From Novipirellula herctigrandis (lineage in GTDB: Bacteria > Planctomycetota > Planctomycetia > Pirellulales > Pirellulaceae), in the NCBI GenBank assembly GCA_007859835.1, contig SJPJ01000001.1:6827260-6891259 (forward strand): a stretch of DNA of 64,000 bases. The letters run 5' to 3'. This document shows positions 3 to 54,514 of the stretch, piece after piece; the first letter of the stretch is position 1, and the number at the start of each line of letters is the position of its first letter. The notes below the pieces were generated by a model. That model ran no database searches, was not told the origin of the DNA, and saw nothing but the letters and a program-made list of their open reading frames with translations. Made by a program: the position numbers and the translations under genes.

Positions 3-3000
3 CTCGATGAAAACGGCAATGTGCTGGCACGTAGCGACAACAGTTTTGATGAGATCAGCGGCGCGTCGGATGTGCTTGTCTTGGATCCATCGTTCGAAGG
101 AACAACGACATCACTGCAAACGCAGCCGGATGTGTTCACCGAGTTTGGTGCAGGCGGCCTTTATGAAGATTTCGGATCGACGAACCCACGTGACGCTGGT
201 ATCCACTTTGTGTTACCCGGCAGTACCGCGGATTCCAACGCTCGGAGCGTCTATTTCTTCCGCGTCCTGAGCGCATCTCACAACCCCGATGACGCGGGTT
301 GTGGTCTGACCGATGGTGGCTATCGATTCCAGTTGCGATTGCAAGAAGAACAGGAATTTGCTGGCAGCGTGGTCCGCTACACGGACATTCGCTACGCCAA
401 CCATGGGATTCACACGCGTGGTTTGCCGAGTTCGTCACCACTTTTGGGTGAAGCTCAAGAGAATGAACAAATCAATTCGTTTATCGCCAGTAACGACTCG
501 ATCGCCACCGATACTGGGTTCAATGGAACGGATATTCCAGGTAACCGTGCTCAATATCTTGGCAACTTGCTGCGAAGCGAAGACATGGTCTTCAGCGTTG
601 GCGGGTCGTTGTCCAGTGGTGCCGATATTGACTTCTACCAAATCGATGTTGATCGAGTGAACGGTGGATTCAACTCGCAAACGACAGGTGTCTTTGATAT
701 TGACTATGCGGATGGTTTCAATCGTCCCAATACGACACTTTACGTGTACTACGATCCCGATGGGGAAGACGGAGCGATCGAGCCAAGCTTGGTTCTTATC
801 GGCGACGATAGCAGTGTACTAGACGATCAATCGAGTCCCGTTAGCGGGTTGGCAAACGACTTGCTCACGCGAGGCTCCGTGGCACCAGGGGATCCGTTCA
901 TCGGGCCTGTGTCGTTGTCGGGTGGATCGTATTTTGTTGCAGTCGTCAATGATGGCTTGGTCGCGGATGCTTTATTGAATCCAACGACGCGACGCGAACC
1001 GCTCGAATCGGTGTTGCGAATTTTCGAAGACCATGTCAGCTCGATCGGTGGTGGCACGGCATTGGCGCCCCGTGAAGGCGCGTTCATTGACCAAACGACG
1101 CTGAATCCTGGTTGGTCGGTCACGCTTGATCGGGCGACAGATCCAGGACACGGTATTGGTGAAACCTTTAACGGGTCGCGAACCAACGCACTCTTCCCGC
1201 CAAGTGTTCAAACGGAAATTCAGTTCCAAAATGGGACGTTTGCTTCGGCACAGGATTTGTCGCTTGGTGATCCGCTGTGGAGTTTAGCCGACGATCCGAA
1301 CATCGGAAACCGATCGGTCAATACATCGCAATTCATTCCTCACACGACCGTTAACGGTAACACGTTTAATGAGATCGTTGATATCTATCGATTTGACGTT
1401 CCTGTCGATGGTTCGGCAGTCACTTTGGATATCGACTTTGGTGCGAACCCGTTCGTCTTTGACCCTGACAATTTGCCTGACGACTTCCCTGCTATCCCCA
1501 ACCAGAATGATCCGGATAGTGTCGATTTGAAATTGGAATTGTTCGACGCCAATTTCAATCGCATTGGATTTGACTCGTTTGATGCGGTGAGTGCAGGCCA
1601 GCTCGGATCGCTGCCGATGTTTGTCACCTCGACGTTTGGCAGTTCGTTGAGCGATGACCCGTTCATCCAGCAAACTCTTTTGGCGGGTACTTATTTCGTG
1701 GCGGTTTCGCCCGAAGCGACGACCTACGATGCGGGCACTCTCTCGTTCTCACTCGACCAAGACGAACGACCAACTTCGGGAACCTATTCTCTGCAAGTGA
1801 GTGTTGAAAATCATGCAAACGATGGTGGCGATCCGACGAATTCGTCGATTCATTTTGATCGTAGCCAACCAAGCGGGACAGTCGAAAGTGTCGCGTTTGA
1901 TTTGGCAGGTTATGGTCCGAACGATCAGCCTAATTTGTACTTCAGCTATTTTTACGATCCAGGATTCGGTGACGATGTCGCGATCACGGCCCGTAGCATA
2001 GAGAATCCGACCGCAGTCGCATTAAACGATGTCACATTTTCACCAAGTACGTTCGGTAGCGTGTGGAATCAAGGCGTTGCCTCACTTGCGGACTTCGCTG
2101 GCGATACCGGAATCGTGATCGAATTCAGCTATACAAGTGGCACCGGCATCGGCGATGGTTTGTACCTCGATGATTTCATTGTCGGGTTCTCCGAACGAGG
2201 TGAAATGATTACCGGTGCTCCTTCGGGTGTAGTCGGAATATCGGGGTTCTCGGACTCGACCTCTAACAGTGGTGAATACCAATTAGAAGTTCGACCAGCC
2301 ACGTCGTACGCAACACCGAATTTCGGTGGTAGTATTACTCTTGATACGACTTATGACACGAATGATCGCTTGAGCGAATCGGTGACGGTTATCGCACCGC
2401 ATGTCGACCAAATCGCAGACGGTGATACGTTTGTCCTTAGCGATGGCGTCAAACAAGTGACGTTTGAATTTGACTTGGACACGGTTGCGGGCGTTGCGCC
2501 GGGCAATATCCAGGTTCCTTACACCGCCCTCAGCACGCAATCGCAAATTGCTGATGCGATCCGCTCAGCGATCAATTCACAAACGGTGCAAAGCACGGTG
2601 CAAATCCAAGCATCGGATTCGTCGGGTTCGGCCACAGGCGGAAACGGGGATGTGCGAGTTGCCCTGTCGGGTAACGTGGTTGGCGATTTCCTTTCGCTGG
2701 ACCGATCGACGGATTTGCCCCCATCGGGCACGCCACTTCCAAATGCCGGTAACGGTTTCCAATTGCCAGTGGTTTACAACCAAGGTTTTGGTGATGCGAA
2801 CGTCGAGCGATACCAAAGCCAAGTGATTGTGGAAAACAATGTCATTCGCGACGTCCGCGCCATCGGCGTGTACAGCGAAGCGGGCGTGCGTGGGTTTGAT
2901 CCTGAGGACCTTAGCCCCGCTCGAACGACAGACTCCGTCATTAACAACAACCCGATTCTGACGCGGTCGGCCAATAATCCGATCCGCTTTAGCGATTACG

Positions 3001-6000: not shown

Positions 6001-9000
6001 CTATTAACGGAACCAACGAAGGTGGCGTCCGCGATGGCGGTATCTTCCAAATCGACGATGGTACCCATTCAAGCGTCGTCTTTGAATTCAACAAACCCGG
6101 CGACGCGAAATTGCCCGGCAGTGTTGAAGTGCTTTTGCCTGACGGACCGACTCCAGCGGATCCGGACGCCTTGGATGCGTTCTTAACTGAAATTGCGACC
6201 AACATTCAAGCGGCAATTGACGCGCAAGTTGCTGCGGGAAGCTTGGACGTTGACACAATGCTCGATGGACACGCGGTGATCATCGGTGCGGAAACCGGAG
6301 CGATCGTCAATACGCGTGGTAGCGGTTTGGTTCAAGATGTTCGCACGTTGTCGCTACAAGTACCTGCGGCGGGAGCTAGCTTCGGTGGTGTTGTCGATGG
6401 TGACACCTTTACGATCAACGATGGTGTGGAGACAGTTACATTCGAATTTAATAACGCTGGCGGACTCAATGACGCGACGAATGTTGGGATTTCGATTGTG
6501 GGCAATCCGAATGCGACTCAGTTGGCACAGCTGATTCAGCAGTCGGTCGCGGTTCGCATGCGACTGAACCCGCTTGTCTATGACACTTCGGTTTACTTGA
6601 ATTTGCCTCTTGATGGTGCTGCATCGGTTCCGAGTGGCCAACTCAGCTTGGTTGGTCTTAGCCGTACACCTACAGACGGCGATTTGATTACGCTGACGCC
6701 CGCACCAAACGCGGATGGTTCGATTGACCCGCCCGTAATCTTTGAACTCAACCGCACTGACGAATCGCCCGCTCCGGCGGACGACGGAGTCGCGATTGGC
6801 AACACCGCCATCAACATCACGCGTTTGACCACAGCGGATGAAATGGCCCAATTGGTCGTCAATGCAATTCAATCGGTTGACGTCAACGGTTTGATCGAAG
6901 CGAACGTTACAGCTGAACCGGGCGGCCAATTGTCGATTGGCGGCGAAGTCGGACTCGGATTTGATACCACGGGGGTTGCCCTGGAAGTCACCGGCCAACC
7001 AAGTGTTGCCGGTACCTCGACGATCGAAGTCTTTGGTCCGCTACTATTGCAATTGCCGCTTGTTGGCGGCGGTGGATTCGCCGACGGGTCGGTGTTGATA
7101 TTGAAGGATACTGTCGGTAACGATGTGGTCTTTGAATTCAACCTAGCGAACACGCCACAAGACGTCGCTGGTGCAGTTCCGGTCACATTCAATACGTTTG
7201 ATCCGGTCAACACGCTTGCCGGTACGTTGGTCGCTGCGATCAACAGTTCGACCGCTGGTATTGTTTCATCCAACGCAGGCAATGGTCGCGTTTCGCTTGG
7301 TCGCATCTCAGCGGATCGAGTCGATCTCGGTGGTTTGGAAAATGACCCAGTCGATCCGACCGACGATGTTCCAGGTGTTCCGCAAATCGCGGTCCGTCGT
7401 GGGATCGTTATCGATGGCGAAACCTTGACGATTCGTCAAGGAGCCGATTCGGTTACTTACGAATTTGAATCGATCTCCAATGGTGGAGGCGTTACCGCAG
7501 GCAATGTCGCGATTCCATTCTCGTCGACCAGTTCGACCGGGGACATCGCTGAGAGTTTGGCGGCCGCGATCAACAACAATCGTGGTGGGTTGCAGTTCAA
7601 TTTGAACGACGATCATCCGCTGCCAGCGGAAGTCGTGGTCGACGCGGTGGGCGATCCAACGGGTGCGGTAACACTCAACGATGTGCCAGGCACCATCATT
7701 TTAACCGCAACTCCAACGGGCGCTGAACCGACCTTAAACGTGGTTGGTATCCCGGGTGGAGCACAGCCCGTCTTTATCTCGCCATCGGCGACCGACGAAG
7801 ATGTCAAGCGAGCTTTGATCAAGGCCATCAATAGTCCATCGGTTGCTGCCTTCACTGATCTAAATGCAGTCGACCGTGGTGGATCGACGTTCTTTGTCGA
7901 GAATGCTAGCGATTTTAGTGGCCCGATTGATTCGTTCTATCTGAGTGGTATCAAAGATGTCGACGGCAATCCACTCGAAGCAAATCGCGCCGACAACACG
8001 ACCCAGTTCACGATTCTGATGCCTCAAGTTGGTTTGGACTTTGGTGATGCCGCCGGTCCAAAGCTTGGCACGATTGGCCGTTACCCAACGACCCTTGCTA
8101 CCGACGGACCACGTCACGTGGCCGGTGGTGGTTTGATGCTCGGTAGCCTCGTCGATGTGGATGCAGACGGACGACCGGGCAATCAAGCGGACGGCGACAA
8201 TGTCGCGCTTCAAGTTGCTACGACCGGATCGCTGTTTGCCGTTTCGACAATTGATGGTGTTGCAACCATCACATTGGATCCGTCGGTGCCGCTGGCAAGT
8301 GCGGATGGCGACACGATCGTTATCGATACAGGCTATGCAATCGCGACGTTGGAATTCGATACCGACGGACTGTTTGACGAAGACCACTTCGCGATCAAGT
8401 CATCGGTCAGTGACACGCCCGAGATGATCGCCGCGGCGATTGTCCGAGCGATTGCCGAAAGCCCGGTCGAGCCTGCCTCGACGGTGGTTAGCGGCGACAC
8501 AGTGGTTGTCAGCGGTAACGATGAGGATGGCGTCAGCTTTATCAGCGAGAACAATCCGCTTGGCATCCTAAACGAAGGGACCGGAACCTACGTCACGATC
8601 ACAAATACCGACGGATCGACGTACCAAGAACTTCGCTATCCTGTGACGGTCACTGTCACCGGAGGCGGTTTTGTTGACGGTTGGATTGACTTTGGCGCCG
8701 ATGGAGACTTCGATGACCCAGGCGACCAAATCCTGTTCAGTGAACCGTTTGACGGAGCATCGGGATCGGTGACTCGAACCTTCATGGTGCCGTACTCGGA
8801 AAATCCATGGAATATCACGGATTCGGCAAACACGTTTGCTCGATTCCGAGTTTCCAAGACTGGTGGGCTTTCACCGAGCGGATTGGCGCTCAGCGGTGAA
8901 GTCGAAGACTACTCGTTGGCCCTCATTCCAGGTTTGCCACCGACCGTCACACCGGCCCAAGCCGCACGCAACTTTGCGACGCCGGAAGATGTCGCCCTTC

Positions 9001-11522: not shown

Positions 11523-11611
11523 CTCCAAGAGTTTTTTTCCTTTTATCCCTCGGCCAACGGCCCCAAGCCTAAAGCCTAACTCCACACGATCCCTCCGAGG
11601 TTCGGGCGAAT
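11523..11611 (+). other. Short gap between giant genes 1 and 2, no terminator seen
   Basis: This 89-bp gap holds a T-run at 11532-11538 with no stem before it, and only a 4-bp GGCC/GGCC pairing further on. A GAGG at 11596-11599 lies about 12 nt before the ATG of the second gene and may serve as its ribosome binding site. Read-through from the first gene into the second is plausible. Confidence 0.4.
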
Positions 11612-29917: not shown

Positions 29918-30202
29918 TAGGAAAAACGAACTTGCGATGTCTCCCCTGACTTGTTTGGGTGAGGGATCGGAATTGGGGCACGGAAGCCTAAAAGATTATT
30001 GAAAAAAGCAGCGTTGATGTGATCGCTGAATAGCCTTTCGGAGGTAAACCTTTCTCGCAGTTTTTGAGTAGGGTGTTTCGGAAGAGGGATTCGTTAGCAC
30101 TGCCAAACCGTTAGAATCAAGGTTTCATTAAATACGCGTTTCGAGCGATTGCTCGAGATATTTCCCATCGTCTCCTGCCATTTTGTCTCCCGGAATTTAT
30201 CC
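29918..30202 (+). other. Intergenic leader before giant gene 3, with a small hairpin
   Basis: This 285-bp region separates the second and third giant genes and is the only long gap in the array, so it may hold a promoter. I could not find a convincing -35/-10 pair. A perfect 6-bp inverted repeat, TCGAGC-GATT-GCTCGA, lies at 30141-30156, about 46 nt before the preferred ATG. It has no T-run after it, so it looks more like a leader structure or operator than a terminator. A GGAGG near 30040 has no start codon at a useful distance. Confidence 0.35.
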
Positions 30203-39200: not shown

Positions 39201-42200
39201 GTGCAACCGATGCTGGGCATGGTATCAATACAGTGGTCGATTCCACGCGTGCACCTGGCAGTGCGAACGTGAATTATGTGGATAACATCGGTGCGGATCG
39301 TTCGTTTAACCAAGGACAAGGCGGAGCAAGTTTCTACTTTGGTTTGGAACAACACATTCCTAGCGGTTCGTTTAACAGTAATACGCAAGGCTATTTGACC
39401 TACGAAGGCGTCAACGCTCAGTGGGGCTTCAGTGAAAACTTGCAACGTGACCTGACGAGTAACCCGAACATTGCCAACACATACAACTTGCCAGGCGGTG
39501 CATTTGGTTCGTTGATGTCGGATGAGTTCAGCCTTGCAGGATCGGTTGCTGAAGACCGACCGACGCTGTATTTGAACTACTATCTCGAAACGGAAAATCA
39601 TGCGGGCGAAACGGACGCCAACGGTCAAGATCCATTCCGTGATAGTGCTCGCGTCTATGCCTCTCGCGATAACGGCGCTACATGGGAATTGCTGGCGACA
39701 AACAATTCCGCGCTTAGCGCGCCTGACCCTAGTGACAACCCGAAGGGCGAATTGCCTGGGTTCTTGTCGCATCTTTCCGATGCGGGATTGAATAGTGATA
39801 CGCCTCGCGCTGAAGGCCATCAAATTGTGCAAGAACTGTTTGACCAGACAGCGGGTGGTGCTGCTCCACAAACGTGGCGTCAACTTCGAGTGGATTTGTC
39901 GACATTTGCTGATGAAGCGAACGTCCAATTGCGATTTGATTTTGCCACCGCGGGTCGCGTTGCGGGCGATCCGCTTGATAACTCTTTCGGAGAACGAGCT
40001 AGCAACCTTCGATCGAACGCTTCGCAGAACAACCAATTCGAAGGTTTCTTTATCGACGACATCATCGTCGGCTATGCCGAACGAGGTGAAATGGTTTCAG
40101 GCACGAATTCCGACACTACGATTACAAATCTGTATGCGGGCGGTTCGAGAACTCAGGATAGGGATCCAAATGCCCGCCCAGACATTGTCAATGGTCCTTA
40201 CCAAATTGAGATCCGTCGAACGGGTGAATATGTTCTAGCAGCCTCGGGTGGTCCGCAAGTCGCGGCGACTTTCGATACCAATGACCGGCATATCAACTCA
40301 GTGCTCGAAACGGGCATTGTGACGTTGGAGGGTGCGCCGGGAACCTATCCTGATACTACCCCAGTGGTGGACACTCGCATTCTTGGCGTGGATGTTCCAG
40401 CAGCCGACATTGTCGAGTGGGAGGTCTCAACGGACCAACCCTTCACGGGCGATTTTAGTCTGAAGTCGGGAGCCGTTTCGGCAACCCAGCAGCATTCGGT
40501 CTACCAATTCAATCGAAGCGATTTGGTCGCGGACGATACGGCTGGTGTGATCGAGTTCTCGTATAGCGTCTCGTCAGCGGCCGACGCGCATGGCCTGCGA
40601 TTCCTGATCGATGGCGTTGCACAGAAATTGACGCCGCCTGATTCTGATTTCCCTGGAAGGGACACTCTGTTAGCAACCGGCAATCTGGGTTACCGAACGG
40701 TCCAGTTTAGTTTCAGCGGTGGTGACCATCATTTTGCGTGGGTCTATGACTTTACCGATCCCGCCGCAGCGGAAGGATTGAACGAGGCGTTTATTGATGA
40801 TATTCGCATTTTGCAGGGTGGCACGGGATTGGTCGCCGACCGAAACCGCCAACGTGCTCAGGGCGTCTTCATTATTGACTCGAACTTCATTTCGGATTCC
40901 TCGGTAGTGGGGATTCATGTGCAACCCGGCCAAGCCGAAGCAGGCGGCAGCGTACCGCATGCGGGGTCGACGATTAATTTCCCCCAACTCAACAGTGGGC
41001 GTTTGATTCCAGGCGTTGTGATCCAGAACAACTTGGTCGCCGGTTCGTCGGGCATCATCTTCGCTGGCGAGACAAACCCAAATCCTCAACGACCTGTCCC
41101 ATACGGCAAGATTATCAACAATACACTTGTTGGTGATGGTCAAACTGGAATCGGCGTCGATGTGGTTGGGCTTGCCAGCCCCACAGTGATGAACAACTTG
41201 ATGACCGATTTGGCTGTTGGCCTTAATGGTGGAAGCGGTTCGGTCATCCGCTCAAACTTCTTCCAAGGCAATGCGGCCAACGGAACCACCGGTGCGGCAG
41301 CCATCCTTGCTGGTGGTAGCGAACCGTTATTCGTCGATAAGGCGAATCGCAACTACTATTTGTTGCCGGGGTCCAAGGCACTCGATAGTTCGCAAGACGT
41401 CGAACAGGATCGCGCCCAATTTGTTACCTTCAAGAATTCCTTTGATATACCTGAATCGCCGACCAGTGCACCGAGTCGGGATGTTTACGGGCAATTGCGA
41501 ATTGACTCTGGTGGAACCGGTGGCGGTACCGGTGCGAATGTCTTCATTGATCGTGGTGCCGTTGATCGATCCGATAAGGATCAGCCTTATGCGGTTCTAT
41601 TGAACCCAGTGGACAACGATGTCGATAATGAGGATCGTGATCCAAACGAGACGGTCGTCCATATGACGAATCCGTTGCTGGAAAACTTCAAAATCCTTTT
41701 GGGTGATGGACGTGGCCCAAATTCACCGTTCGAAGGAACCGGCGTCAATGGTTTGACGGTGGACGATCCGAACGACTTGAATATCTCTACCGACGGAGTC
41801 CAAATCGTTCACAACGGTCGACTGCTTGTCGAAAATACGGATTACTCGCTCGGCTATAACCCGCAAACAGGTGTGCTGCTGCTGACTCCGCTGTCGACTT
41901 TGTGGGAACCGACCGGCGTGTACACCATCACGCTCGACAATACCCAAATTGCTGACCTGGCGGGCAACCCATTGCGGTCGAACCAAACCGATGGTTCGAC
42001 GAAGTTCTTTATCTTGATGCCGGACGTCGAATTGGACTTTGGCGACGCGCCATCGAGTTTTGACACCTTGCTGGCAGAAAACCCCGCTCGCCATACGATC
42101 CAACCCGGCGCGACTCCGCGATTGGGAGCGCGTGTCGACGGTGAACCGGACAGCCCGGTTCCAGCAGGATCGGATGATACTGCACAAACTGTTTGGGCGT

Positions 42201-45200
42201 CCTCCCCGGATGGATTGTTCCTGATCGCCGCTTCGGTGGATCCCGCACAGAATGGCTACATGATCGACGTGGATCCAACGGCAACGGCTGTCGGTGGTGA
42301 AGAGTTGACTGTCCAGATTGGACTTCGTAGTGAGACGTTCGAACTGGTTCTTCCCGGCTTTGCGGCGAAGCGAGGTAACATCGCTGTAGCACTGACCGCG
42401 TCGGATTCAGCGTCCGATATCGCAACCAACTTGGCCGATGCGATTCGTGAACAATTGGTCGCGGAAGGGGATGCATCGTCAGTGACGATCGATGCAACCT
42501 TGCCAGAACAAATCGCGGTTCTCAGTTTCGATGATGAAGATGGTGTCGCCGTCGGTACATACCGAGTGATCCCCGATCCGGCCGACCCGGCCGTGTTCAC
42601 GGACTACACGGTCTTCCTCAATCCCGGCGCGCCCGCATTGACGACTGACTCAGCCGATGTGCTTGGGTTCCTCAATCCGCTTGACAAGTTAGGGACGACG
42701 ATTTCGGTAAACGCCAGCAGTGCTGGCAAACTCGATGCTTGGATCGACTTTAACTACAACGGCACGTTCGATGTCACTGAACAAATTTTCAAGAACGTTG
42801 ACTTGGTTGCGGGGGATAACACCTTAACGATCCAAACGCCGATTGACACCGCGGCAGGTAGTCCATGGGCACGATTCCGAATTTCAGAAGAAGGGAATCT
42901 AGGGCCCGATGAATTGGCGATCGGTGGTGAAGTGGAGGATTATCAATTCCAAGTCTTCCGGATTTCGCCAACGATTCCTGAGGATGACTCGTTTAGTGTC
43001 GACGAAGATGTGACGCTTGACACGGCCGCGATGGACATGTCGGTGCCGCCCGCGTTTACGGAAGCCTCGTTGTTCGATAATGAGGTCATCTCTGGATTCT
43101 TGCCACCGCGATTCTTGGTTTATGATCAACCAACCAAGGGGACATTGACGGTGACCGATGATGCATCGGGACGATTCGTTTATACTCCTGCGGACGACTA
43201 CTACGGCGAAGATACCTTCACGTACTGGGTGACGACTCAGCCTGTGCAAGGAGCGGTCGCCTCGCCGGCTGCATTGCCGGACAACGTCACATTGGCAACC
43301 GTGACGATCACGGTCAAACCTGTGAATGACGTTCCATTGGCAGTGGCAGGATCGTTTGTCACGCTTGAAGATACGGCCATTACCATTGATGCCGACGAAC
43401 TGCTAAGTGGGGCTGTTGCGGATGAATTGGCTCAGTATCCCGCTGCAACTCCGCCGGCTGTTTCGCCGAGTGGTTCAGCAAATCCATGGAACGAAGACAA
43501 CCAAACGTTAACCGTTGTTGCGTTGACGATTCCTGTTCTTGTTGGCGACACGAACGTTACCACGAGTGGATCCTATGAAACCGCACGCGGAACTTTTGAC
43601 GTTACCTTCGCCGGCGGCATTCTTGATCAATTGGTCTACACGCCCAAGCAAGATCTGAACCGCGACAATCGACGTGCGGTCGCGGATCCTCCGATCTTTG
43701 AAGAGTTCTCATTCACGATTCAAGATGATGGTCTATCGATCGATCCGGTGGATAGCACAATTGTCACGATGGGAGCAATCCAGACCAGCACCAAGATGGT
43801 TTCGATCGATGTGAAACCAGAAAACGACGATCCGGTCGCCAACGATGATGTGATCAGTGAAAACAATGTCCGTTGGGCCACGTACAACGCTGGTCTTGCG
43901 ACTCCGGTCACTCCCGCGCCGATTCCGACCGAAGACACTGACTTCGTGATTCCACATGCTTATTTGATCAGCAATGACTTCAATGCTCGGGACACCGCGT
44001 TTGATGAACTTGACCTGATCAATGATGGCGTCTTAACCGTGACGGGCGTTGATGCTGCATCAGCCCTTGGCGGTACGGTATCGATCGTTGGTGGCAATCT
44101 TGTCTATCGAGCACCCGAACATGCGTACGGACTTGATACGTTCAGCTACACGATCACGGACGCCGGCGTGAATATCGATGTGGCGGGTGTCAGCACGGAT
44201 GCCCCGCTAATGCATACCGCTACGGTGACGGTGTTGGTCAAACCGATCAATGACAAACCACTGGCGAATGATTTGGATGTCACGTTGTCCGAAGCAGTCG
44301 AATTGATCGACGGAACGAATGATGTTGATCCGAATGCCATGAGTGAAGGTGTTGGATTCAAGACCATCACTGCGGCCGAGTTGTTACGACTCGGCGCCGT
44401 TGGCGGTGCCTTGGAAACGACCTTCTCGACCGGCAGTAACGATACCTACGATGAGCACGAACAAGATTTGCGTGTTGTGGGCTTCGGCTTGCCTGGTGCA
44501 ACGACGCCGAGCGTCGACGCGGTATCGCTGACATATGATGTTAATGGCGAAGCGACAGAGGTGTTGCAGACCGCAAGCGGCCAGCTCGAACTGTCATTTG
44601 AAATCGATGCCACGACGGGCGTCGGCACGTTTGTCAGTTTGGTTTACACGCCGGATACTGACTATAACAATCGCAGTGAATTCCCCGCGACCGACCCGTT
44701 TGTGTACTTTGTCGAAGACTTCGGCGAGTTGACGGTTTACGGTGCGGACCAAGTTGGTGAATCGACAACGTCGGTGGATCATGGAAGCTTACGTAGTGAT
44801 CCTGCGACGGTTGTGATGACGGTGACGCCAGTCAACGATGTGCCGATCTTCCCCGAGTTCAGCACGGTCGAGTTAGTCGAGGACGAAGCGGCTGATTTCG
44901 CCGTGGTGGTTCGCGACATCTACATCGATCCATTGGTGATGATTACTCCTGGTGCGGAATCAACCGCATTGGATGAAATCGCTCGTCAAGGCGTGACGAT
45001 TGAGATCGCCGAATTGAATGTCCCAACCGGCATGTTCGCTAGCCTGCCTGTCTTGGACGAATCCGGTGTCTTGACGTTGACACCGAACCCAGACGTTTAT
45101 GGCTGGGCTGTGTTTGAAGTCACGGTGACCGATGATGGGCAAAGTTACGACTCGACCACCGGCACGTTTGTGGACGATCCACTCACGGCAGTTCGTTCCT

Positions 45201-48200
45201 TGACTGTGCATATTTCGCCAGTGAATGATGCCCCGGTTTCAGTTGACCGCAACCTGGAAGTGACCGAAGCCGAAGAGTTTGCGGTTGGTGATGGTTCGGC
45301 AACAAACCTCATCGCACGCTTGCCGTTGACTCCTGCGGACTTCCTTGGTGGGACGACGGCCAACTCTGTGTTGGCAGAACAGAGCGACTTTGCCGACAAT
45401 GTGTTGCCGAATCCGGCTCTGGGCGAAGTCGAATATGACGAAGATGAACAAAGTCTTCGCGTCGTTCAGTTCACCGTGACGGATGTGGATGGCAACTTGA
45501 TTGTCGTGGACAGGGACAACCAAAACGGCGTCGAATTGACATTGGCCACGGGCAAGATCACGTTTAACTTCGATCCGACTACTGGTGAGTTCACCGACGG
45601 GGAATACTACCCCGACACGGATTACAACGAACGACCTGAATTCGTGCCGACGGAAGCATTCACTTACATCGTCGAAGACTTTGGTCCCACGACGATCCCC
45701 GGAGCCGACGTCATTATTCCTGCAGTATCGACATCGATCGATTACACACTCGAACTGGACTCAGCGGATAATCTGAACAACCGTTCGGAACCGAAGTTGA
45801 TGACGATTCGAACGCGTTCAATGAATGACGTACCTGAATTTGATCCGATCACCAATGTGGTTAAGTTTGCTGAAGATGTTCAAGCCGATAACTCGATCGT
45901 TTACTACGACGTCTACGGTGGCACGGTGCTGATGGGTTACGACCCCGCGGCCCCAAGTTTGGCGGAAGCGATCTTTGTCAGTCGCGATACCGCATTGGAT
46001 GAACGAGCCAATGAAACCTTGACGTTCACCACGACGATGGTCGCGCCAACAGGCATGTTCGCCAGCACGCCGACGCTTGATCAATACGGCGTCTTGGCGT
46101 TGACTCCAAACCCAGACGTCTTTGGTTATGCAGTGCTTGAAATCACGGCGACCGATGACGGCCAGAGCTACGATCCGGCTTCGGGTTTGTCGGCCGATAC
46201 TCGCAGTATCACGCGCACGATCACCGTGAATATCACGCCTGTGAACGATGCCCCGATTTCGTTTGATCGTGAATTGGAATTCACCGAACGGCATGAGCCC
46301 GATGCGATTGTCGATGGCTTTGGTCAATTGCCCATCACGGTGGAAGACTTACTTCGTGAGAACACCGGTGTCGTTTCGGATCCGGCGGATGCGAATAATC
46401 CAGCCAAAGAAGGGGACTTTGCAGCAACTCTTGAATCGCGATTCGACGAGCATGAGCAGCAACTTCGTGTGGTTGAATTCACTGTCACTGACGATACCGG
46501 TGCCGATGTGATCGTTGACAAAGACAACTTCAATGGAATTCCTTTGAAGTTGGCGACAGGCACGATCGCTTTCAACTTTGAAATGGCTAGCGGTGCATTC
46601 ACCGGCGGTGTCTTTGTGCCGGATGTTGATTACAACCGCTTGCCACACTTCGATCCTCTGTTGACGGTCGAACAGTTCACTTACATCGTCGAAGATTTTG
46701 GTGCAACGACGATTCCAGGTGCTGACCAAGTATCACCCGTTGGTGATTCGCCCGTCGATTATACGACGGATGGTGGAACGCCTCCGGTGGGCCTGAACCA
46801 TCGTAGCGAACCGAAGATGGTCACCATTACGGTCAAGGAAGCGAACGATTTGCCTGTGTTGCCATCCTATGGCATCGTGCAATTGGTCGAAGATTTGAAG
46901 GACAACACGGTCGACGCTAGCGGAAATGCGATTGCAGCTGGCACCGTGAATCCTGACAACGAAATGTTGTTCTACGACATCTATTCCGACCCAACGGTCA
47001 TGGTTCTACCAGGACCTTTGACGGCCAAAGATGAATTGGCATTGCAGAATGTTGTAATCACGGTGACACCTGAAAACGTCCCGCTCGATATGTTCGCGAC
47101 CTTGCCGAGCGGCGCATACGCAGAATTGTCCACCGATGGAATCTTGACTGTTCAACCGAACCCAGACGTATTCGGTGTAGCGGTGTTCAAGATCAATGTG
47201 ACTGACACCGGTCTCGATAGCGATGGCAATAGTGATCCGCAGTCAGTCGAACGATTGATCACGATCAATATCGCTCCTGTGAACGATGCTCCCGTCGCTT
47301 ACCCGCGAGCTCTATCGGCAAGCGAATCTGTTGAGTTCGATGAGTTTGGTCAACCGCTTGATGTTCCTGTTGAGATCACGTTCAATGCGTTGAGTTTGAT
47401 CAATGGTGATGCCTCGCTTGGCGAAACGCCTGATGCCGAAGGATTGTTCGATGGTGGGTTGTCAAGTCTTTACAACGAAGATGAGCAAGAGCTTCATGTG
47501 ATCGAGTTCCTCGTTCTCGGTCCTGATAGCGATACGTTTGAAATCAAGGGTTCCGACTTTGTTGGCCAAACGGCGACACAAGAAACCCGTGGTGGCGGTG
47601 TGTTGGAATTCACTTTTGACGCAGACGGCTTCTTTACCGAAGGCGTCTATCGCCCGGCGACCGATTTCAACCGCGAAGCTCCCTATCTTTCACCAGAATT
47701 CTTTGCCTACACGATACAAGACGACGGTGCGACGGAGATTCCTCCGAGTGGCTCGCTGCTTGATCCGGCACTCCCTGTTGAACGATCGGAATTGTCCGTT
47801 GTGACGATCGAAGTCATCGCGGTTAACGACTCACCGATCTTTGTATTGCCTTCGACGGAAATTGAAGTGCTCGAAGACAATTCAGTCGAAACGATCACGA
47901 GCGTTGCTACTGGTATTAGTCCTGGTGGTGGTTTGGACGAAGTGAATCAAGAACTTGAATTCACCCTGACGGCCGATGGATTTGTTGCGACCGATTTCTT
48001 TGCTGTGGTGCCGACGATGAATGTCGAAGGCGATTTGACGTTCCAACCTGGGGCGGATGTCTTTGGTGACTTCGTGTTCGATGTCACATTGGCGGATAAC
48101 CCTGGCACGACCGATTCTGCGGTATCGACGCAGAAGTTGACGATTCATGTTCGTCCTCAAAACGATGCTCCGTTGCACACTCGTGTAGGGTCTTCGATAA

Positions 48201-50659
48201 GCTACGCTCCGTCAGTGGAAGACACGGAAATGGTGATCCCACTTGTTGGTTCGGCAACGGAAACTGGACTCCTCGATGTATTTGTTGTGGGACCGACGAA
48301 CGAAACATCCACTTTGGTCGGTGGCGGGCAAAGCATCTCAATGCAAACTCCGCTCACCAACCGCACGGCTAAAGGTGGTACGTTGACGCCGGTCGTCGAG
48401 AACGGCGTCGTCACAGGGTTGACTTATCTACCACGGCTCGACTTCGTCGGGATTGACACGTTTGTCTACACGATTACCGATGGCGGAATCAGCATTGACT
48501 TGAACACCGATGGTGAGGAGAAAGCCGATGCGTTGACTGCGACTGGAACCGTTACTTTGACGGTGACCGGCGTGAACGACCCACCGCAATTCTCAGGTGC
48601 TGCTGATCACACTTCGGCCGAAGATCAAGGAACAGTTACCGTCAAGAATTGGGCCACGGGTATTCGACCTGGTCCTATTGGCGCGGCGGACGAAGTTGGT
48701 CAAGCGATGAACTTCATCGTCACCCAAGACTCCGGACAGACGGACTTGCTCGTCGGTTTGCCTGAAGTGGTTATCAGTGGTGGTACCGCCAGTTTGGTCT
48801 ACACGGCGGCGCAAGATCAGTTTGGTGTTGCTGTCTTTACGGCAATCCTGCAAGACGATGGCGTGCCTGTTGCTGATAGTACGCCAGCACAGTTCACCAT
48901 CACGATAACGCCGGTCAATGATCCACCAACCTTCACCGCTGGTTCGCCAGTGAGCGTGAATGAAGATAGTGGCGAATATGAAGAAGTCGACTGGGCCACG
49001 ATGATTTCGCCCGGCCCGGCGAACGAAAGCGACCAAACGGTAGTCTTCAACGTGGTTACACCTGTTGAGTCGCAGTCATTGTTCGCACCTGGTGGCTTGC
49101 CACAGGTCAGTGATGATGGAACCTTGACATTTGAAGTCGCTGAAAATGCCAGTGGTGTTGCGAATGTTGAGATCACGGCGAATGATTCGGAAGGATTTGA
49201 CTCGGAAACCGTTACCTTGACGATCTCTATCGTTGAGCAAGAGGATGCGGTGGTCGCAGTTGACGATACCCTCGATACGGATGAAGACGCGGTTCTTGAA
49301 CTCGATTCGATTGACTTGACGGGCAACGACATCGATCCTGATTTGGCAACAAATCCGGAGGAAGTCTTGACGATCGTCATGCCACCAAGCCAATTGACTA
49401 GCAAAGGCGCAGTGTTGACCTATGATTCGGCAACGGGTCGAGTCGTTTACAACCCTGCAACGGCGGAAGAAATCCAAGCGATGAAACCTAGTGATTCGAC
49501 GGTCGATTCTTTCACCTACGAAGTGAGAGATCACACCGGAAACACCAGCACCGCGACCGTCACCTTGAATATCTCGGGACTGAACGATGCTCCCATTTTG
49601 GCGAACGATGGGATTCTTCTCAACGAATCTGGTCCAACCGTTGTGACGCCACTGGTCAATGATATTGATGTCGATGGCACAATTGTGCCGTCAAGCATCA
49701 TTATCACCGCCCAGCCTCAGTTCGGTGCCTTAACGGTCGAGAATGACGGTACCGTCATTTACACGCCGAATGAATCCTTTAGTAGGGTAGACACGTTCGA
49801 TTACACCGTCGGCGATAATCTTGGCCAACAAAGTGAGCCAGCGTCCGTCACAATTTCGCTAAGCTTGTTGCCGAATGTTCCTGATTTCAACGGCGTGGTT
49901 GCGACGAGTAAGGATACGACGACACTTGATGTCGGGGCTGCTTCGACCGCTATCGAAGGTACTTTGGATTTGACGAGCATTCAAATCGTTGACGGCCCGT
50001 CACATGGTACCGCGACGGTGAATGACGACGGCACGATCGGTTACATCGCCGATGCTGGCTATTTGGGCCCGGACTCATTCCAGTTCACGATTGCCGATTC
50101 GGAAGGGCGGGTGAGCGATCCAGCGACGGTGAACATCAGCGTTGTTGAATACCGCTTGCAAAACCCCGATCCGACCAAGTACAACGATGTCAATGCGAAC
50201 GGAGATGTAACTGCTTTCGATGCCTTGCTGATTATTAATCGGTTGACGGAAACGCCGCAAAATGTCGCCAGTATTCCTGTGACATCGATGGACCAAGGTC
50301 CGAACTACTACGATGTCAATGGTGACGACACGATTACGGCACTCGATGCTTTGTTGGTCATCAATCAATTGTCGCAGCAAGACGACAACAGCGTTTCGGG
50401 CGAACAAGTGGTGACGTCGGATCTTATCACTGCGACCCAATCGGCGAGCGGTGTCGTTGATACGTATGCGTCCGCGGTTGATCTTCAATCGACTCCAGAG
50501 AATCTAGAATCGGCTTCGCCGAAGAAGATGAGTGCTTCCACATCGCCCTCGCAACCGTTGGATGTGGTTGATTTGATCGCTGAAAGTCGTGAAGGCTCGC
50601 AGGAGCAGAACGACGAGAAACTAGAAGCCCTCGACGAAGCGTTCGCCAATTTGTTGTAG
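30203..50659 (+). CDS. Giant secreted-type modular metalloprotease-like protein 3 (6818 aa)
   Basis: An in-frame TTG at 30149 would add 18 residues, but the ATG at 30203 gives the expected very basic N-terminus leading to the LEPR-XLL-like motif LESRQLLAG (residues 42-50) and is preferred. Order of modules: Ig-like region; a metzincin domain with intact HEIGHTLGLGH (residues 711-721); pre-peptidase domain; beta-helix region with 'INGLFIRV' turns; a propeller-like region interrupted by five ~110-residue repeats; a jelly-roll-like module ending in DDIIVGYAERGEM; a second beta-helix; DFGDA/GEVED domain (GEVEDYQFQVF near 42921); about a dozen cadherin-like modules, four VNDxP boundaries of which mark a 330-residue super-repeat; and a dockerin with loops DVNANGDVTAFDALLIIN and DVNGDDTITALDALLVIN. 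It is probably an exported protease carried on a very large scaffold; substrate unknown. A terminator follows 10 nt after the stop. Confidence 0.92.
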   Translation: MTLRRIRSLFGSTSERRTGRKGFGRRSKAHRSKSRQMLAQALESRQLLAGPDLIAIRPDSGALLQGNDTLNIAPREFNLLFQGGANIDESTIGNSSIQLVRSGGDGAFFDPAITDPNDPRSLNNDIAVSLGYIGLGEPNSTDPDDLQRIVFRPSSSASFNATDPTSAFPDDTYQIQIVGAGGGALTNLSGEAFNDGVDFQTTFRLDRGAQVVSVVPQPVSRNTQQIMFASGVTGGSFTLSLNGETTDPLSVPTSNAAIKSALEALDGVQTGDVLVGGTREVTFQGQFAGEQVPLMVMDTSSLVGGTGNVVRSSSLSQASNQIVVYFDDQAIDGAEVVDPKYYRLINTSGTFSTNDDSTMLPESVSYDRAENSVVLTFAAAIPEGNYRLDIGDSGGDNSTLAGAVKVGRLSSDNAFSQNGFIGDVGGSSTDAADVDLYEVKIVASMATTALNVSVSPNAGLEGLVRILDAGGAELATQTAAAGVDIVVPAFAIAADGTFYIEVSSADGVSTGSYTVNASVTDSPIDNRDDNTTINDATDLGSLGAAGITIGGQISPQSIPLPPLVGSEDDLGHRQIQREAHIASTGTTPTVPSPTRVVRYYFPATLGADASGGDYTNLITATEKQIVRDIFEIYAQQSGYEFIESPGMAPGDGDLMIGKGDLRSLDPGVGPNSGVAGLGGGNLGFGAAVLNGAIYDGNNRFFGDGFTGVMFHEIGHTLGLGHAYDVPATMGGALPNNVSPGDNDIIHLQRIMPPNSTDIDMYQFTLDQPGRFTAETFAERLATPSLLNTALTLYREIAGGDIEVVSRNDQYVGADSLIDISLEPGTYFIGVSSTGNTNYDPRVKDSGFGGTTNGAYELKLAFDADRDGALRDASGTVIDGDNDGNPGGVYSFWFQSSDPSTTLYVDKIADTTANVPQGSGAINDPIDELDRALLFAGNRIVIPNDATEAILDGQSFKVDDGVNVATFTYGGAGLDHIVLDPADSVSDIATKTNAAILAAQSANRLNATVEVSVTGKVVQLGQIDNLDITESPTFLTTPNLVKVVGNGGADQNIDTLADNRPYLVGLDTGGNPLVDGGEFLVPQGVNVMIHAGALFKMRKANLDAGSSSANISRATSSMQVLGTPNNAVFLRSFHDDSVGGESDGVGPAPNSSDFGGIVLRDDSDLEENGIFLNYVNHVDIKHGGGKVFVDANESVFSPIHLVDSRPTISFNRITDSDDAAISASPDSFDDSLGRIGPTVVGNSLADNSINGLFIRVETPVGGSIDTLTVSGRFDDTDITHVLSENLIIAGASGGPTLTSTGTLVARAAGRLVVDPGIVMKMNRAVIQVQRGSGSLIAEGTVDRPIVFTSFKDDRYGGSGSFDADNTTDSPMAGDWSGLYFGQATSGSLDHAIITYAGGVSNTSGAAFNAVEVHQADFRITNSLLQDNASGAASGVRGGLGANASSVIYVRGAQPIIMNNEIVDNDGPAISINANALRYENMRDAGRSVGDVDLFSQFADNSGPLVRLNQLDNNSINGMVVRGEVLVAQSIWDDTDIVHVLQSEIIVDNLHHVGGLRLQSSNSESLVVKLSGGANVGFTATGTPVEIDDRVGGTIQVLGTVGHPVILTALADDLVGAGFTPTGEVMKNTNNSGSPSTGTPGAWRGFLFDEFSNDRNVAVVRELENAITNKLDVNANPTVSQLLGTLAKNEKSGDESSRLGFEVSGYISPNDANDVDVYSFVGTAGTEVWLDVDRTDTTLDAVIEVVNAAGTVLARSMRSGEVGAAGDLNTSTLTKNTLLGGDHYTQNFRDPGLRYTLPGTPGAKGTYFVRIRSNPASSTNKATIAGESRGNYTLQIRLNQTNEFPGSTVQYADIRFAQTGIDVQGLPAHSPLIGEGGELAGQGGSYDAAQSMINVLQSDIAALSISGELSDANDVDWYEFDVAQTGVQVIPGQNDDVGTVAVVFDLDYSDNAVRGDTTIAVYDSNQNLVYVGRESNIEDDQPSDPTDPNTAVSDLGRGSLGVKDAYIGPVHLPSGGTYYVAVMSDRQLPSAMTGSFVADLDNDANAFVRLEPVNSVTRVVEDHIGFSGYDSRGSLIAPETDQIFGIESVASLNTHIPQYRFEDVSLYLATDRATADADDRLYIVDPYNGGAYSNPVSPNSWSAGADDVQDIVVRSDGRMFGYQRVDGVADSVGRLVEIDPSDGSLTTVALDNIPGEGGVAAVGASARPNTRDIDRRLGSHLDRADQFTNSDDVDALTFERQGNLSAAPIYDVYYVVRESDDSSKLYRGNTIGDATPTPAVVGGPNATGNIEYGLMGNIQVNDNAQVDFVNGADTTGVLLTGINGTTFTVQVTRTTDPTGITAVNVAARTATINLDSDFNPSAQEFMDLINNDVDVSQFVEATLRFGDPLLQGTFGSPQPTDPATPFTDIDTYYRTITFDDGAGEISTVRVSSKLGTFTLSITRRDEADAVTAVNVANQTATVNLDGRETPTVSVLVNLINNHAEVSQFLRASVETGLGGSGSNTSPAATSITDRATSPTVRFNNGLGTTARVVLDSLDGTFTLTITRDADPAVPTGVTAFDPVLHTATINLTTDPLDQTTVGEFINLINTDPQLIPFVSARIGGGSVLSDVGTPTSPAAGDSIAIAATVYEEVDFFDGVTTSTARITSIGLDSIAPGILTDPPYQVTITRNFAPTSITTISEANREFLVNLDAGSAPSVQDFVDLINNDTIARRYMYASIAVGDDLSVGQATSPAVNTYVNQAATYANTVFSVIDDADPPNVTNIRVQSTLPTADGDFVLNITRPGNRGNAVVLGVDLANRVINLEIGAQNGGGPTAGEIIDALNQHVDARQLVTAVIVGGNATGFGDGNEGTDANVVGRQNYVAGTGERLRGRVTGISFDDPVTPSGTLYGVTAGGEFIRIEKNTGNASILFEDPAIEFAGLALGPQNVEGGLYADMFFAITSTRDLYAFDVDGNLQAIFAGGATSVSYTDPDNGGTTSDVPVGIAFSPIDVNLWHPTTRRATDAGHGINTVVDSTRAPGSANVNYVDNIGADRSFNQGQGGASFYFGLEQHIPSGSFNSNTQGYLTYEGVNAQWGFSENLQRDLTSNPNIANTYNLPGGAFGSLMSDEFSLAGSVAEDRPTLYLNYYLETENHAGETDANGQDPFRDSARVYASRDNGATWELLATNNSALSAPDPSDNPKGELPGFLSHLSDAGLNSDTPRAEGHQIVQELFDQTAGGAAPQTWRQLRVDLSTFADEANVQLRFDFATAGRVAGDPLDNSFGERASNLRSNASQNNQFEGFFIDDIIVGYAERGEMVSGTNSDTTITNLYAGGSRTQDRDPNARPDIVNGPYQIEIRRTGEYVLAASGGPQVAATFDTNDRHINSVLETGIVTLEGAPGTYPDTTPVVDTRILGVDVPAADIVEWEVSTDQPFTGDFSLKSGAVSATQQHSVYQFNRSDLVADDTAGVIEFSYSVSSAADAHGLRFLIDGVAQKLTPPDSDFPGRDTLLATGNLGYRTVQFSFSGGDHHFAWVYDFTDPAAAEGLNEAFIDDIRILQGGTGLVADRNRQRAQGVFIIDSNFISDSSVVGIHVQPGQAEAGGSVPHAGSTINFPQLNSGRLIPGVVIQNNLVAGSSGIIFAGETNPNPQRPVPYGKIINNTLVGDGQTGIGVDVVGLASPTVMNNLMTDLAVGLNGGSGSVIRSNFFQGNAANGTTGAAAILAGGSEPLFVDKANRNYYLLPGSKALDSSQDVEQDRAQFVTFKNSFDIPESPTSAPSRDVYGQLRIDSGGTGGGTGANVFIDRGAVDRSDKDQPYAVLLNPVDNDVDNEDRDPNETVVHMTNPLLENFKILLGDGRGPNSPFEGTGVNGLTVDDPNDLNISTDGVQIVHNGRLLVENTDYSLGYNPQTGVLLLTPLSTLWEPTGVYTITLDNTQIADLAGNPLRSNQTDGSTKFFILMPDVELDFGDAPSSFDTLLAENPARHTIQPGATPRLGARVDGEPDSPVPAGSDDTAQTVWASSPDGLFLIAASVDPAQNGYMIDVDPTATAVGGEELTVQIGLRSETFELVLPGFAAKRGNIAVALTASDSASDIATNLADAIREQLVAEGDASSVTIDATLPEQIAVLSFDDEDGVAVGTYRVIPDPADPAVFTDYTVFLNPGAPALTTDSADVLGFLNPLDKLGTTISVNASSAGKLDAWIDFNYNGTFDVTEQIFKNVDLVAGDNTLTIQTPIDTAAGSPWARFRISEEGNLGPDELAIGGEVEDYQFQVFRISPTIPEDDSFSVDEDVTLDTAAMDMSVPPAFTEASLFDNEVISGFLPPRFLVYDQPTKGTLTVTDDASGRFVYTPADDYYGEDTFTYWVTTQPVQGAVASPAALPDNVTLATVTITVKPVNDVPLAVAGSFVTLEDTAITIDADELLSGAVADELAQYPAATPPAVSPSGSANPWNEDNQTLTVVALTIPVLVGDTNVTTSGSYETARGTFDVTFAGGILDQLVYTPKQDLNRDNRRAVADPPIFEEFSFTIQDDGLSIDPVDSTIVTMGAIQTSTKMVSIDVKPENDDPVANDDVISENNVRWATYNAGLATPVTPAPIPTEDTDFVIPHAYLISNDFNARDTAFDELDLINDGVLTVTGVDAASALGGTVSIVGGNLVYRAPEHAYGLDTFSYTITDAGVNIDVAGVSTDAPLMHTATVTVLVKPINDKPLANDLDVTLSEAVELIDGTNDVDPNAMSEGVGFKTITAAELLRLGAVGGALETTFSTGSNDTYDEHEQDLRVVGFGLPGATTPSVDAVSLTYDVNGEATEVLQTASGQLELSFEIDATTGVGTFVSLVYTPDTDYNNRSEFPATDPFVYFVEDFGELTVYGADQVGESTTSVDHGSLRSDPATVVMTVTPVNDVPIFPEFSTVELVEDEAADFAVVVRDIYIDPLVMITPGAESTALDEIARQGVTIEIAELNVPTGMFASLPVLDESGVLTLTPNPDVYGWAVFEVTVTDDGQSYDSTTGTFVDDPLTAVRSLTVHISPVNDAPVSVDRNLEVTEAEEFAVGDGSATNLIARLPLTPADFLGGTTANSVLAEQSDFADNVLPNPALGEVEYDEDEQSLRVVQFTVTDVDGNLIVVDRDNQNGVELTLATGKITFNFDPTTGEFTDGEYYPDTDYNERPEFVPTEAFTYIVEDFGPTTIPGADVIIPAVSTSIDYTLELDSADNLNNRSEPKLMTIRTRSMNDVPEFDPITNVVKFAEDVQADNSIVYYDVYGGTVLMGYDPAAPSLAEAIFVSRDTALDERANETLTFTTTMVAPTGMFASTPTLDQYGVLALTPNPDVFGYAVLEITATDDGQSYDPASGLSADTRSITRTITVNITPVNDAPISFDRELEFTERHEPDAIVDGFGQLPITVEDLLRENTGVVSDPADANNPAKEGDFAATLESRFDEHEQQLRVVEFTVTDDTGADVIVDKDNFNGIPLKLATGTIAFNFEMASGAFTGGVFVPDVDYNRLPHFDPLLTVEQFTYIVEDFGATTIPGADQVSPVGDSPVDYTTDGGTPPVGLNHRSEPKMVTITVKEANDLPVLPSYGIVQLVEDLKDNTVDASGNAIAAGTVNPDNEMLFYDIYSDPTVMVLPGPLTAKDELALQNVVITVTPENVPLDMFATLPSGAYAELSTDGILTVQPNPDVFGVAVFKINVTDTGLDSDGNSDPQSVERLITINIAPVNDAPVAYPRALSASESVEFDEFGQPLDVPVEITFNALSLINGDASLGETPDAEGLFDGGLSSLYNEDEQELHVIEFLVLGPDSDTFEIKGSDFVGQTATQETRGGGVLEFTFDADGFFTEGVYRPATDFNREAPYLSPEFFAYTIQDDGATEIPPSGSLLDPALPVERSELSVVTIEVIAVNDSPIFVLPSTEIEVLEDNSVETITSVATGISPGGGLDEVNQELEFTLTADGFVATDFFAVVPTMNVEGDLTFQPGADVFGDFVFDVTLADNPGTTDSAVSTQKLTIHVRPQNDAPLHTRVGSSISYAPSVEDTEMVIPLVGSATETGLLDVFVVGPTNETSTLVGGGQSISMQTPLTNRTAKGGTLTPVVENGVVTGLTYLPRLDFVGIDTFVYTITDGGISIDLNTDGEEKADALTATGTVTLTVTGVNDPPQFSGAADHTSAEDQGTVTVKNWATGIRPGPIGAADEVGQAMNFIVTQDSGQTDLLVGLPEVVISGGTASLVYTAAQDQFGVAVFTAILQDDGVPVADSTPAQFTITITPVNDPPTFTAGSPVSVNEDSGEYEEVDWATMISPGPANESDQTVVFNVVTPVESQSLFAPGGLPQVSDDGTLTFEVAENASGVANVEITANDSEGFDSETVTLTISIVEQEDAVVAVDDTLDTDEDAVLELDSIDLTGNDIDPDLATNPEEVLTIVMPPSQLTSKGAVLTYDSATGRVVYNPATAEEIQAMKPSDSTVDSFTYEVRDHTGNTSTATVTLNISGLNDAPILANDGILLNESGPTVVTPLVNDIDVDGTIVPSSIIITAQPQFGALTVENDGTVIYTPNESFSRVDTFDYTVGDNLGQQSEPASVTISLSLLPNVPDFNGVVATSKDTTTLDVGAASTAIEGTLDLTSIQIVDGPSHGTATVNDDGTIGYIADAGYLGPDSFQFTIADSEGRVSDPATVNISVVEYRLQNPDPTKYNDVNANGDVTAFDALLIINRLTETPQNVASIPVTSMDQGPNYYDVNGDDTITALDALLVINQLSQQDDNSVSGEQVVTSDLITATQSASGVVDTYASAVDLQSTPENLESASPKKMSASTSPSQPLDVVDLIAESREGSQEQNDEKLEALDEAFANLL
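31991..32463 (+). other. Metzincin (matrixin-like) zinc protease domain in giant protein 3
   Basis: The extended zinc motif HExxHxxGxxH is complete as HEIGHTLGLGH: His711, His715 and His721 are the expected ligands and Glu712 the general base (numbering from 30203). It is followed about 30 residues later by LQRIMPP, whose Met751 is a candidate Met-turn. The size (~160 residues) and the upstream 'RYYFPATLG' strand fit an M10-type catalytic core. No cysteine-switch propeptide was recognised. Activity is inferred from the motif only. Confidence 0.82.
37105..38760 (+). repeat. Five degenerate ~110-residue repeats unique to giant protein 3
   Basis: Five consecutive units share a core of the form GTFTLxITRxxDPxxxTAVN, then ATINLD, then a helix like FxDLINND, then a xVSQFVxASV strand and a Gly/Ser/Pro-rich linker containing TSPAA. 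The fifth unit is the most divergent. Identity between units is at protein level; the DNA has drifted, so the duplication is old. The block interrupts the propeller-like region that is continuous in the second giant. I do not recognise the domain family. Confidence 0.7.
44241..47840 (+). repeat. ~1-kb (about 330-residue) tandem super-repeat of cadherin-like modules in giant protein 3
   Basis: The boundary strings VNDVPIFPEF (44831), MNDVPEFDP (45821), ANDLPVLPSY (46841) and VNDSPIFVLP (47822) are spaced 990, 1020 and 981 bp apart. Within each interval the same landmarks recur in order: a 'VEDExxD...YDIY' strand, 'LDExA', 'MFASLPxL', 'LTxxPNPDVxGxAVxE', 'VTDDGQSYD', 'PVNDAPxSxxRxLExTE', 'YDEDEQxLRVVxF', and 'FTYIVEDFGxTTIPGAD'. 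Each period therefore holds one short and one long cadherin-like module. Confidence 0.75.
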
Positions 50660-50669: not shown

Positions 50670-50706
50670 AAGTAGGCCGGTCGGATTGGCCGGCCTACTT
50701 TATTTC
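50670..50706 (+). terminator. Intrinsic terminator after giant gene 3
   Basis: A perfect 11-bp GC-rich stem, AAGTAGGCCGG (50670-50680) and CCGGCCTACTT (50690-50700), with a 9-nt loop is followed by a T-rich stretch (TATTTC). It starts 10 nt after the stop codon of the third giant gene and before ruvA. It probably ends the giant-gene transcript. Confidence 0.8.
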
Positions 50707-50767: not shown

Positions 50768-51391
50768 GTGATCGTCACGATTACTGGAAAATTAGTCCGT
50801 GTGGGTGAAACTGCGGTGGTTTTGGAAGCCAACCCGTTCGAATATGAAGTCTTGGTTGCTGATTTCACTCGACGGCAATTACAAGCGAGAACTGGCGACG
50901 AGATTCGACTGCATACGCTTGAGTACATCGAAGGAAACGCTCAAGGAGGTCGGTTGACGCCTCGATTGATCGGATTCATGTCAGAACCGGAACGTCAATT
51001 CTTTGACTTGTTTTGCAGCGTTGATGGAGTTGGCGTCAAAAAGGCACTGCGCGCAATGGTACGCCCAGTAAAAGAACTTGCCGTGTTGATCGAGCAGCAA
51101 GACGCAAAAGCCTTGTCGGCACTGCCGGGGGTTGGTCCCGCGACCAGCGAACGCGTGATCGCTAAACTGCGTCGCAAGATGCCTCGATTTGCTTTGATGG
51201 TTGATCGTGAAGGAGTAGGCGAAACCGTTGAACTCGGCTCGCAAGTTGTCAGCGAGACATTCGATGCACTGATGACACTTGGTCACAGCGAAGCGGATGC
51301 ACGAAAATTGATCGACGAAGCACTGGCGAGTGGTAAGAAGTTCAAGGACACCGAGTCACTATTGACGATGATTTACCAACGCTCGCATTAG
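50768..51391 (+). CDS. ruvA: Holliday junction branch migration protein RuvA
   Basis: RuvA binds four-way DNA junctions as a tetramer and loads the RuvB motor for branch migration in recombination repair. The 207-residue length is normal. Visible: the N-terminal OB fold ([12 protein letters not shown]... through about residue 65); two helix-hairpin-helix elements ([10 protein letters not shown] near 79-90 and [16 protein letters not shown] near 117-132); and the C-terminal RuvB-binding helical domain ([20 protein letters not shown]). The start is GTG, supported by AAAGGGA at 50754-50760, 7 nt upstream. RuvB and RuvC are not in the window, so the usual ruvCAB cluster is broken up here. It converges on rnpA with a 35-bp gap. 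Confidence 0.97.
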
Positions 51392-51426
51392 CATGCGGGG
51401 GCATCCATTAGTCATTTTTGCTTCGC

Positions 51427-54499: not shown

Positions 54500-54514
54500 T
54501 GCGTCCCGAGTTGC

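Follow-up and report, generated by a model that had tools for sequence, protein, structure and literature searches.

The window analysed here, a stretch of 64,000 nucleotides from the planctomycete Novipirellula herctigrandis (contig SJPJ01000001.1, positions 6,827,260 to 6,891,259), holds three neighbouring plus-strand genes of giant size. According to an open reading frame (ORF) scan they encode proteins of 5,737, 6,101 and 6,818 amino acids (aa), and they are separated by gaps of 89 base pairs (bp; genes 1 and 2) and 285 bp (genes 2 and 3). The original prediction, made from the sequence alone, had the last two lengths right, but put the first gene, which begins outside the window (Table 1), at ~5,500 codons. 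GEVED, Big_9/Cadherin_4/Cadherin_5 and Dockerin_1 are found by Pfam in all three giants, with the best stretches in that order, as had been predicted; the beta-helix that headed the predicted order rests on a sub-threshold match in gene 3 only (PF13229, 20.1 bits versus a cut-off of 25.9). The long conserved module that contains this match is probably beta-helical; its profile matched zero PDB chains at E ≤ 0.1.

When the giants were compared pairwise as proteins (BLASTP, E ≤ 1e-3), the strong blocks proved collinear in all three gene pairs, at ~26–40% identity. Residues 917–2239 of gene 1 align with 681–2002 of gene 2 (37%, 683 bits), 1435–2255 of gene 1 with 1305–2077 of gene 3 (39%), and two stretches of gene 2, 1205–2117 and 4843–6099, with 1297–2160 (40%) and 5604–6817 (39%, 642 bits) of gene 3; N-terminal and middle blocks likewise preserve their order. 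Weaker off-order matches, mostly repeat-to-repeat, are also present. The mere sharing of generic modules is ruled out by the collinear blocks. A recent duplication is ruled out as well, the paralogs being ~26–40% identical in the main blocks versus mostly 55–85% between proteins at the same position in this genome (G000) and its nearest relative (G002). The duplication is therefore judged to be old, and ancient because the paralog lineages split before the genera in the trees described below. The sequence comparisons thus support the predicted origin of the array, by tandem duplication of a gene that was giant beforehand, with its age corrected to ancient.

Table 1. Coordinates of the giant genes and their features (window positions unless a contig or locus is named; G000 is the window's genome)
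Feature	Position	Strand	Remark
Gene 1 (type 1), portion within window	3..11522	+	open frame cut at window's left edge
Gene 1, whole	G000:C1:6821568-6838781		5,737 aa; ATG at G000:C1:6821568, 5,692 bp left of window
Gene 1 dead protease domain	L009:14676-15986		left of window
GEVED, gene 1	8673..8918	+	Pfam, 35.6 bits vs cut-off 24.4
Dockerin type I, gene 1	10965..11159	+	Pfam
Gene 2 (type 2)	11612..29917	+	6,101 aa, ATG start
Gene 2 metzincin-like domain, zinc motif lost	12695..13669	+	WFVEALRGIGNLLGLG opposite gene 3 HEIGHTLGLGH
Gene 2 long conserved module	15224..17962	+	homologous to 33800-37099 of gene 3
GEVED, gene 2	25472..25705	+	Pfam; then Big_9/cadherin-like repeats as far as dockerin
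Dockerin type I, gene 2	29396..29575	+	Pfam
Gene 3 (type 3)	30203..50659	+	6,818 aa from ATG; in-frame TTG at 30149 gives 6,836 aa
Gene 3 metzincin (M10/matrixin-like) domain and sub-threshold PPC	31883..32785	+	
Gene 3 zinc-binding motif HEIGHTLGLGH	32333..32365	+	Met at +8 past third His (by eye)
Gene 3 long conserved module	33800..37099	+	weak sub-threshold Beta_helix and PPC inside
Gene 3 fast-evolving stretch	36899..39148	+	residues 2251-3000 numbered from TTG
GEVED, gene 3	42731..42886	+	Pfam match cut by protein split; Big_9/cadherin-like repeats after
Dockerin type I, gene 3	50180..50371	+	then tail ending LDEAFANLL
Terminator-like hairpin	50670..50700	+	14 pairs, then T-rich; directly 3' of gene 3

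Predicted active and dead metzincin heads

The N-terminal protease-like region is a domain of the matrixin/serralysin metzincin type. In gene 3 it resembles these enzymes (PF00413; MMP-1 and serralysin in the PDB) in its fold, in the complete motif HExxHxxGxxH and in the methionine that follows the third histidine; the Met-turn spacing of matrix metalloproteinases (MMPs) used for comparison comes in part from alignment. It differs from them in being carried on a giant cadherin/dockerin protein and in the loss of that motif from the lineage of lead paralogs. HExxHxxGxxH is absent from genes 1 and 2, so that the protease-like N-terminus of the original prediction holds as a fold for gene 3, while the catalytic motif is missing from its two neighbours. 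The type 1 domain is taken as a metzincin-type fold from profile alignment; searched against the PDB at E ≤ 1, its profile returned one row only, an S-layer protein (E 0.2) matched outside the protease part.

Scored over ~1,000 residues ahead of the long module, the zinc motif is intact in none of 22 type 1, in 8 of 17 type 2 and in 48 of 52 type 3 proteins, with L142 taken as intact after reading, by a pattern that tolerates some substitutions at the glycine and the third ligand; each row counted is a sequence rather than an event, and close relatives enter separately. Two of 24 type 1, 1 of 18 type 2 and 13 of 65 type 3 proteins were left unscored. Three type 3 proteins with fewer than 700 residues upstream (L140, L160, L167) were scored since their motif had been seen, and motif-less equivalents were unscored, so the scoring favours an intact motif; omitting the three gives 45 of 49. 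Among 14 rows with short upstream sequence, outside the counts, the motif was present in 4 and not found in 10. Some type 2-side proteins carry a further upstream zinc motif (in G015, G008 and G030), and that of G001, a genome of the same genus as the window's, has only that one.

Although dead, the type 1 domain has stayed conserved, with 43–78% identity to that of gene 1, genus mates included, and its rough omega of 0.08–0.09 (computable in two of three comparisons) is close to the 0.07 of the active domain, with synonymous divergence (dS) near or at saturation. Parsimony on a 114-row tree requires 12 state changes of the zinc motif; its loss therefore happens repeatedly. Taken together, the split into active and dead proteases is well supported at the sequence level. 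A second giant array in G018 (contig C188, L058–L061) has two type 3-side members, neither of which shows the zinc motif at the corresponding alignment position.

Recurrence, probable co-transcription and possible sequence exchange

Searches and trees were built on the long conserved module of gene 3, and 8 duplicates of fetched loci were removed from the trees. Of 60 genomes searched, counting the window's own, 38 have a family member (33 of the 54 that are of good quality). Phylum-wide, 20 of 392 genomes, again with the own, were positive at E ≤ 1e-20: nine belong to the same family, one to a second family within the order, and ten to a single further family within the class. Eleven arrays in 10 genomes were examined, own included, the others having been picked for at least two matches per contig. 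Each consists of two or three adjacent giant genes, and 10 of the 11 are led by type 1. Three-gene arrays, the synteny that had been proposed as a check on the prediction, occur in G002, G015, G008 and strain K23_9, that of G008 consisting of type 1 and two type 2-side genes.

Position 1 proteins find their best matches among position 1 proteins from other genera, the first array of G018 excepted. They form a clade with a Shimodaira–Hasegawa-like approximate likelihood ratio test (SH-aLRT) support of 99, both with 10 rows and, as the type 1 clade of a larger tree, with 24. The type 3 clade (65 rows, SH-aLRT 100) takes in other families of the order. A named-genome scan yielded 417 relatives, of which 80 were kept; among ten named genomes chosen from it, nine have a type 1-first array, namely strains TBK1r, JC639, K23_9 and SV_7m_r, S. 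sedimenti, Roseiconus nitratireducens, R. europaea 6C, Aporhodopirellula aestuarii and R. solitaria CA85, and the tenth, Blastopirellula marina, has one match only. That the array is old and recurs across related bacteria with a fixed type 1 lead is well supported by these searches and trees. The 392-genome search also yielded possible further arrays in G331 and G410, which stand outside the type classification.

The three giants are probably co-transcribed. No terminator-like site was found on the plus strand in 11400–11700 or 29850–30260. Within 14 ORFs on each side, no conserved neighbour or secretion genes were found next to the arrays, and cross-genus flank matches are only sporadic, whereas type 1 stays at the head of the arrays. 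The ORFs flanking the present array match RuvA, DnaJ, Usp, Tex, a choloylglycine-hydrolase-like protein and GGDEF, the ordinary genes of the right flank (50768–61425), and further an FAD-binding/succinate dehydrogenase-type flavoprotein, a class 3 lipase and an AAA ATPase; one ORF is without a match.

Gene 2 of G001 (L055–L057) is a mosaic by stretchwise identity: residues ~250–4,000 are 54–76% identical to the other-genus G015 and 16–46% to G000 where aligned, residues 4,501–5,000 have almost no counterpart in G000, and the last ~1,250 (5,001–6,250) are 49–69% identical to both. This pattern is most simply read as exchange between lineages; old alleles that were unevenly retained would be the alternative. 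In gene 3, residues 2251–3000 are only 10–38% identical to the G002 ortholog, the rest of the protein 43–87%. This hypervariable stretch appears by eye to consist of diverged repeat-like units of ~100 aa within an otherwise conserved protein, and zero DNA repeats of at least 40 bases were found in 36900–39300.

Proposed surface display and its alternatives

All three N-termini contain, by pattern, the motif LExRxLLA within a short basic stretch, which could represent the planctomycete extracellular leader. At the other end, the dockerin PF00404, a duplicated calcium-binding loop domain, scores above cut-off in all three genes, and a pattern search finds a dockerin-like loop in 23 of 27 giants; of the four without a match, one is truncated at the end of its contig. 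The tails that follow the dockerin often carry a recurring hydrophobic pattern, such as LDEAFANLL or LDDIASDVSLAW, in G000 and in G034/G018 (L102–L131). The pattern, which was written after seeing the first set, occurs in 31 of 45 tails of that set versus a shuffle mean of 5.8 (highest 13). This set comprised 26 of 27 giants, the one cut by a contig end being omitted, and 19 of 28 own-genome loci, the omissions being two duplicates, four loci without a stop, one without the dockerin pattern, and L004 and L087 by judgement. In a second set of 30 loci, 26 with a stop within reach, the pattern occurs in 14 of 26 (shuffle mean 3.8, highest 11); three of the 26 were shared with the first set, and 13 of the 23 new rows have it. 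This tail of dockerin proteins is possibly a sorting signal. Further dockerin-bearing open frames of 12,504, 10,376 and 8,824 aa lie at 1308329, 4607644 and 4842901 of G000:C1. At G000:C1:4706360 and 4711209 (L001, L002), a pair of dockerin matches separated by 5 kb have the same score and the same last 45 residues, and are therefore probably a recent duplication.

An ancient, probably co-transcribed array of giant secreted surface proteins of adhesin and protease character, with a non-catalytic lead partner, is the explanation favoured here with moderate confidence; its anatomy and antiquity are well supported by the comparisons above, while display at the surface, the binding of ligands and regulation by the dead head are proposed as its working parts. 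Each protein would consist of a leader, a metzincin-type domain with PPC, the long module, GEVED, a cadherin-like/Big_9 rod, a type I dockerin and the tail. The giants might be exported and retained at or near the cell surface through the C-terminal end, such that the calcium-binding rod projects the head outward. The long module could then bind glycan or protein ligands, and the gene 3 metalloprotease could cleave proteins at the contact site or process the neighbouring giants. The type 1 head would retain a non-catalytic role, either in binding or in the control of the active partner. A bolder version, a conserved active/dead pair in which a giant type 1 pseudoprotease is always made first from the operon and assembles with or regulates one or more giant active metzincin adhesins at the planctomycete surface, in which the heads of these adhesins are swapped between lineages on conserved tails, and in which dockerin plus tail sorts all of them without cohesin, is considered doubtful.

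Several observations weigh against the favoured explanation, in addition to the limits stated with the motif counts and omega values. The long-module search found no family member in 22 of 60 genomes, and type 2 is not supported as a single clade (SH-aLRT 49). The gene 3 domain scores 23.1 against the Pfam M10 cut-off of 24.0, relatives reaching E 2e-8, and its PPC is sub-threshold. Planc_extracel (PF07595) stays below its cut-off of 25.5 bits in genes 1 (19.3) and 2 (24.0), and is unlisted for gene 3 at E ≤ 0.01. Not every array includes an active partner: in that of G013 neither protein has the zinc motif, and in R. europaea, Aporhodopirellula and R. solitaria the active partner lies on another contig. 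As to co-transcription, terminator-like sites are inconsistently placed: of 10 arrays, counting the present one, five have such a site 3' of their last gene, 3 of 15 internal gaps contain one, and the array of G002 has none.

The dead heads of genes 1 and 2 might simply reflect the decay of an unneeded module, which would leave plain giant adhesins with an incidental metalloprotease. The repeated loss of the zinc motif fits such a decay: nine of the 17 type 2 rows scored, and four of the 52 of type 3, lack it too. In type 1, however, every one of the 22 scored rows shares the loss and the remainder of the domain is conserved, although conservation of a fold alone proves no role; this alternative is rated unlikely, if somewhat less so than the others. 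A cellulosome-like “planctosome”, in which dockerins attach the giants to cohesin scaffolds for polymer degradation, would fit the occurrence of Dockerin_1 in all three, and a cohesin/dockerin complex for protein degradation has been proposed for freshwater planctomycetes (PMC6461901). Cohesin matches occur in 13 of 60 genomes (own among the 60), including the array carriers G008, G015 and G030. However, in G000, with its 40 dockerin matches, and in its two same-genus relatives, cohesin (PF00963) has zero matches at E ≤ 0.001, and such a scaffold appears improbable for this array. Much the same low probability is given to the idea that the giants are polysaccharide-degrading enzymes with the beta-helix as a lyase: for what looks to be this array in Stieleria varia, Table 2 of PMC7717043 gives the function of the middle gene as “polysaccharide hydrolysis, related to pectin lyase” and that of the genes on either side of it as glycosyl hydrolase activity, whereas carbohydrate-enzyme families are absent from the Pfam results for the giants at E ≤ 0.01 and the long module profile, as mentioned, lacks a PDB match at E ≤ 0.1.

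The S. varia genes in question, the consecutive Pla52n_17480, _17490 and _17500, encode 6,271, 7,630 and 6,858 aa, the last one annotated as “Matrixin” (PMC7717043); judged from that table, they look like the same array. Literature searches found no paper on the array beyond this one, and nothing on these giant genes was recognised in the accessible part of PMC2754498. The original prediction that this is not a described system is thus mostly right for the arrangement, although giant planctomycete surface genes as such were already known (PMC5177795), as was the table of PMC7717043. The known planctomycete giants share with the present ones the cadherin-like, calcium-binding character of predicted surface proteins; tandem paralogy, cross-genus conservation and an active/dead split are not discussed in the accessible portions of these two papers. 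Giant1–5 of Apilactobacillus kunkeei are also encoded by consecutive genes for extracellular proteins of 3,000–8,000 aa, with a beta-solenoid near the N-terminus in Giant1–4, C-terminal attachment and sequence exchange between lineages (PMC12863079). They differ in belonging to a lactic acid bacterium and in having rods of helical or beta-sheet repeats and SH3b-like ends, and the available text of that paper mentions no metalloprotease, cadherin-like repeats or dockerin; the likeness is drawn from the description given there.

The giant genes of planctomycetes are described in print as numerous, costly and, for the most part, without a known purpose. With its fixed lead gene, its named carriers and a split into active and dead proteases that can be tested, this recurring array makes the vague class experimentally concrete, and bears on how surface-living planctomycetes build their exterior.
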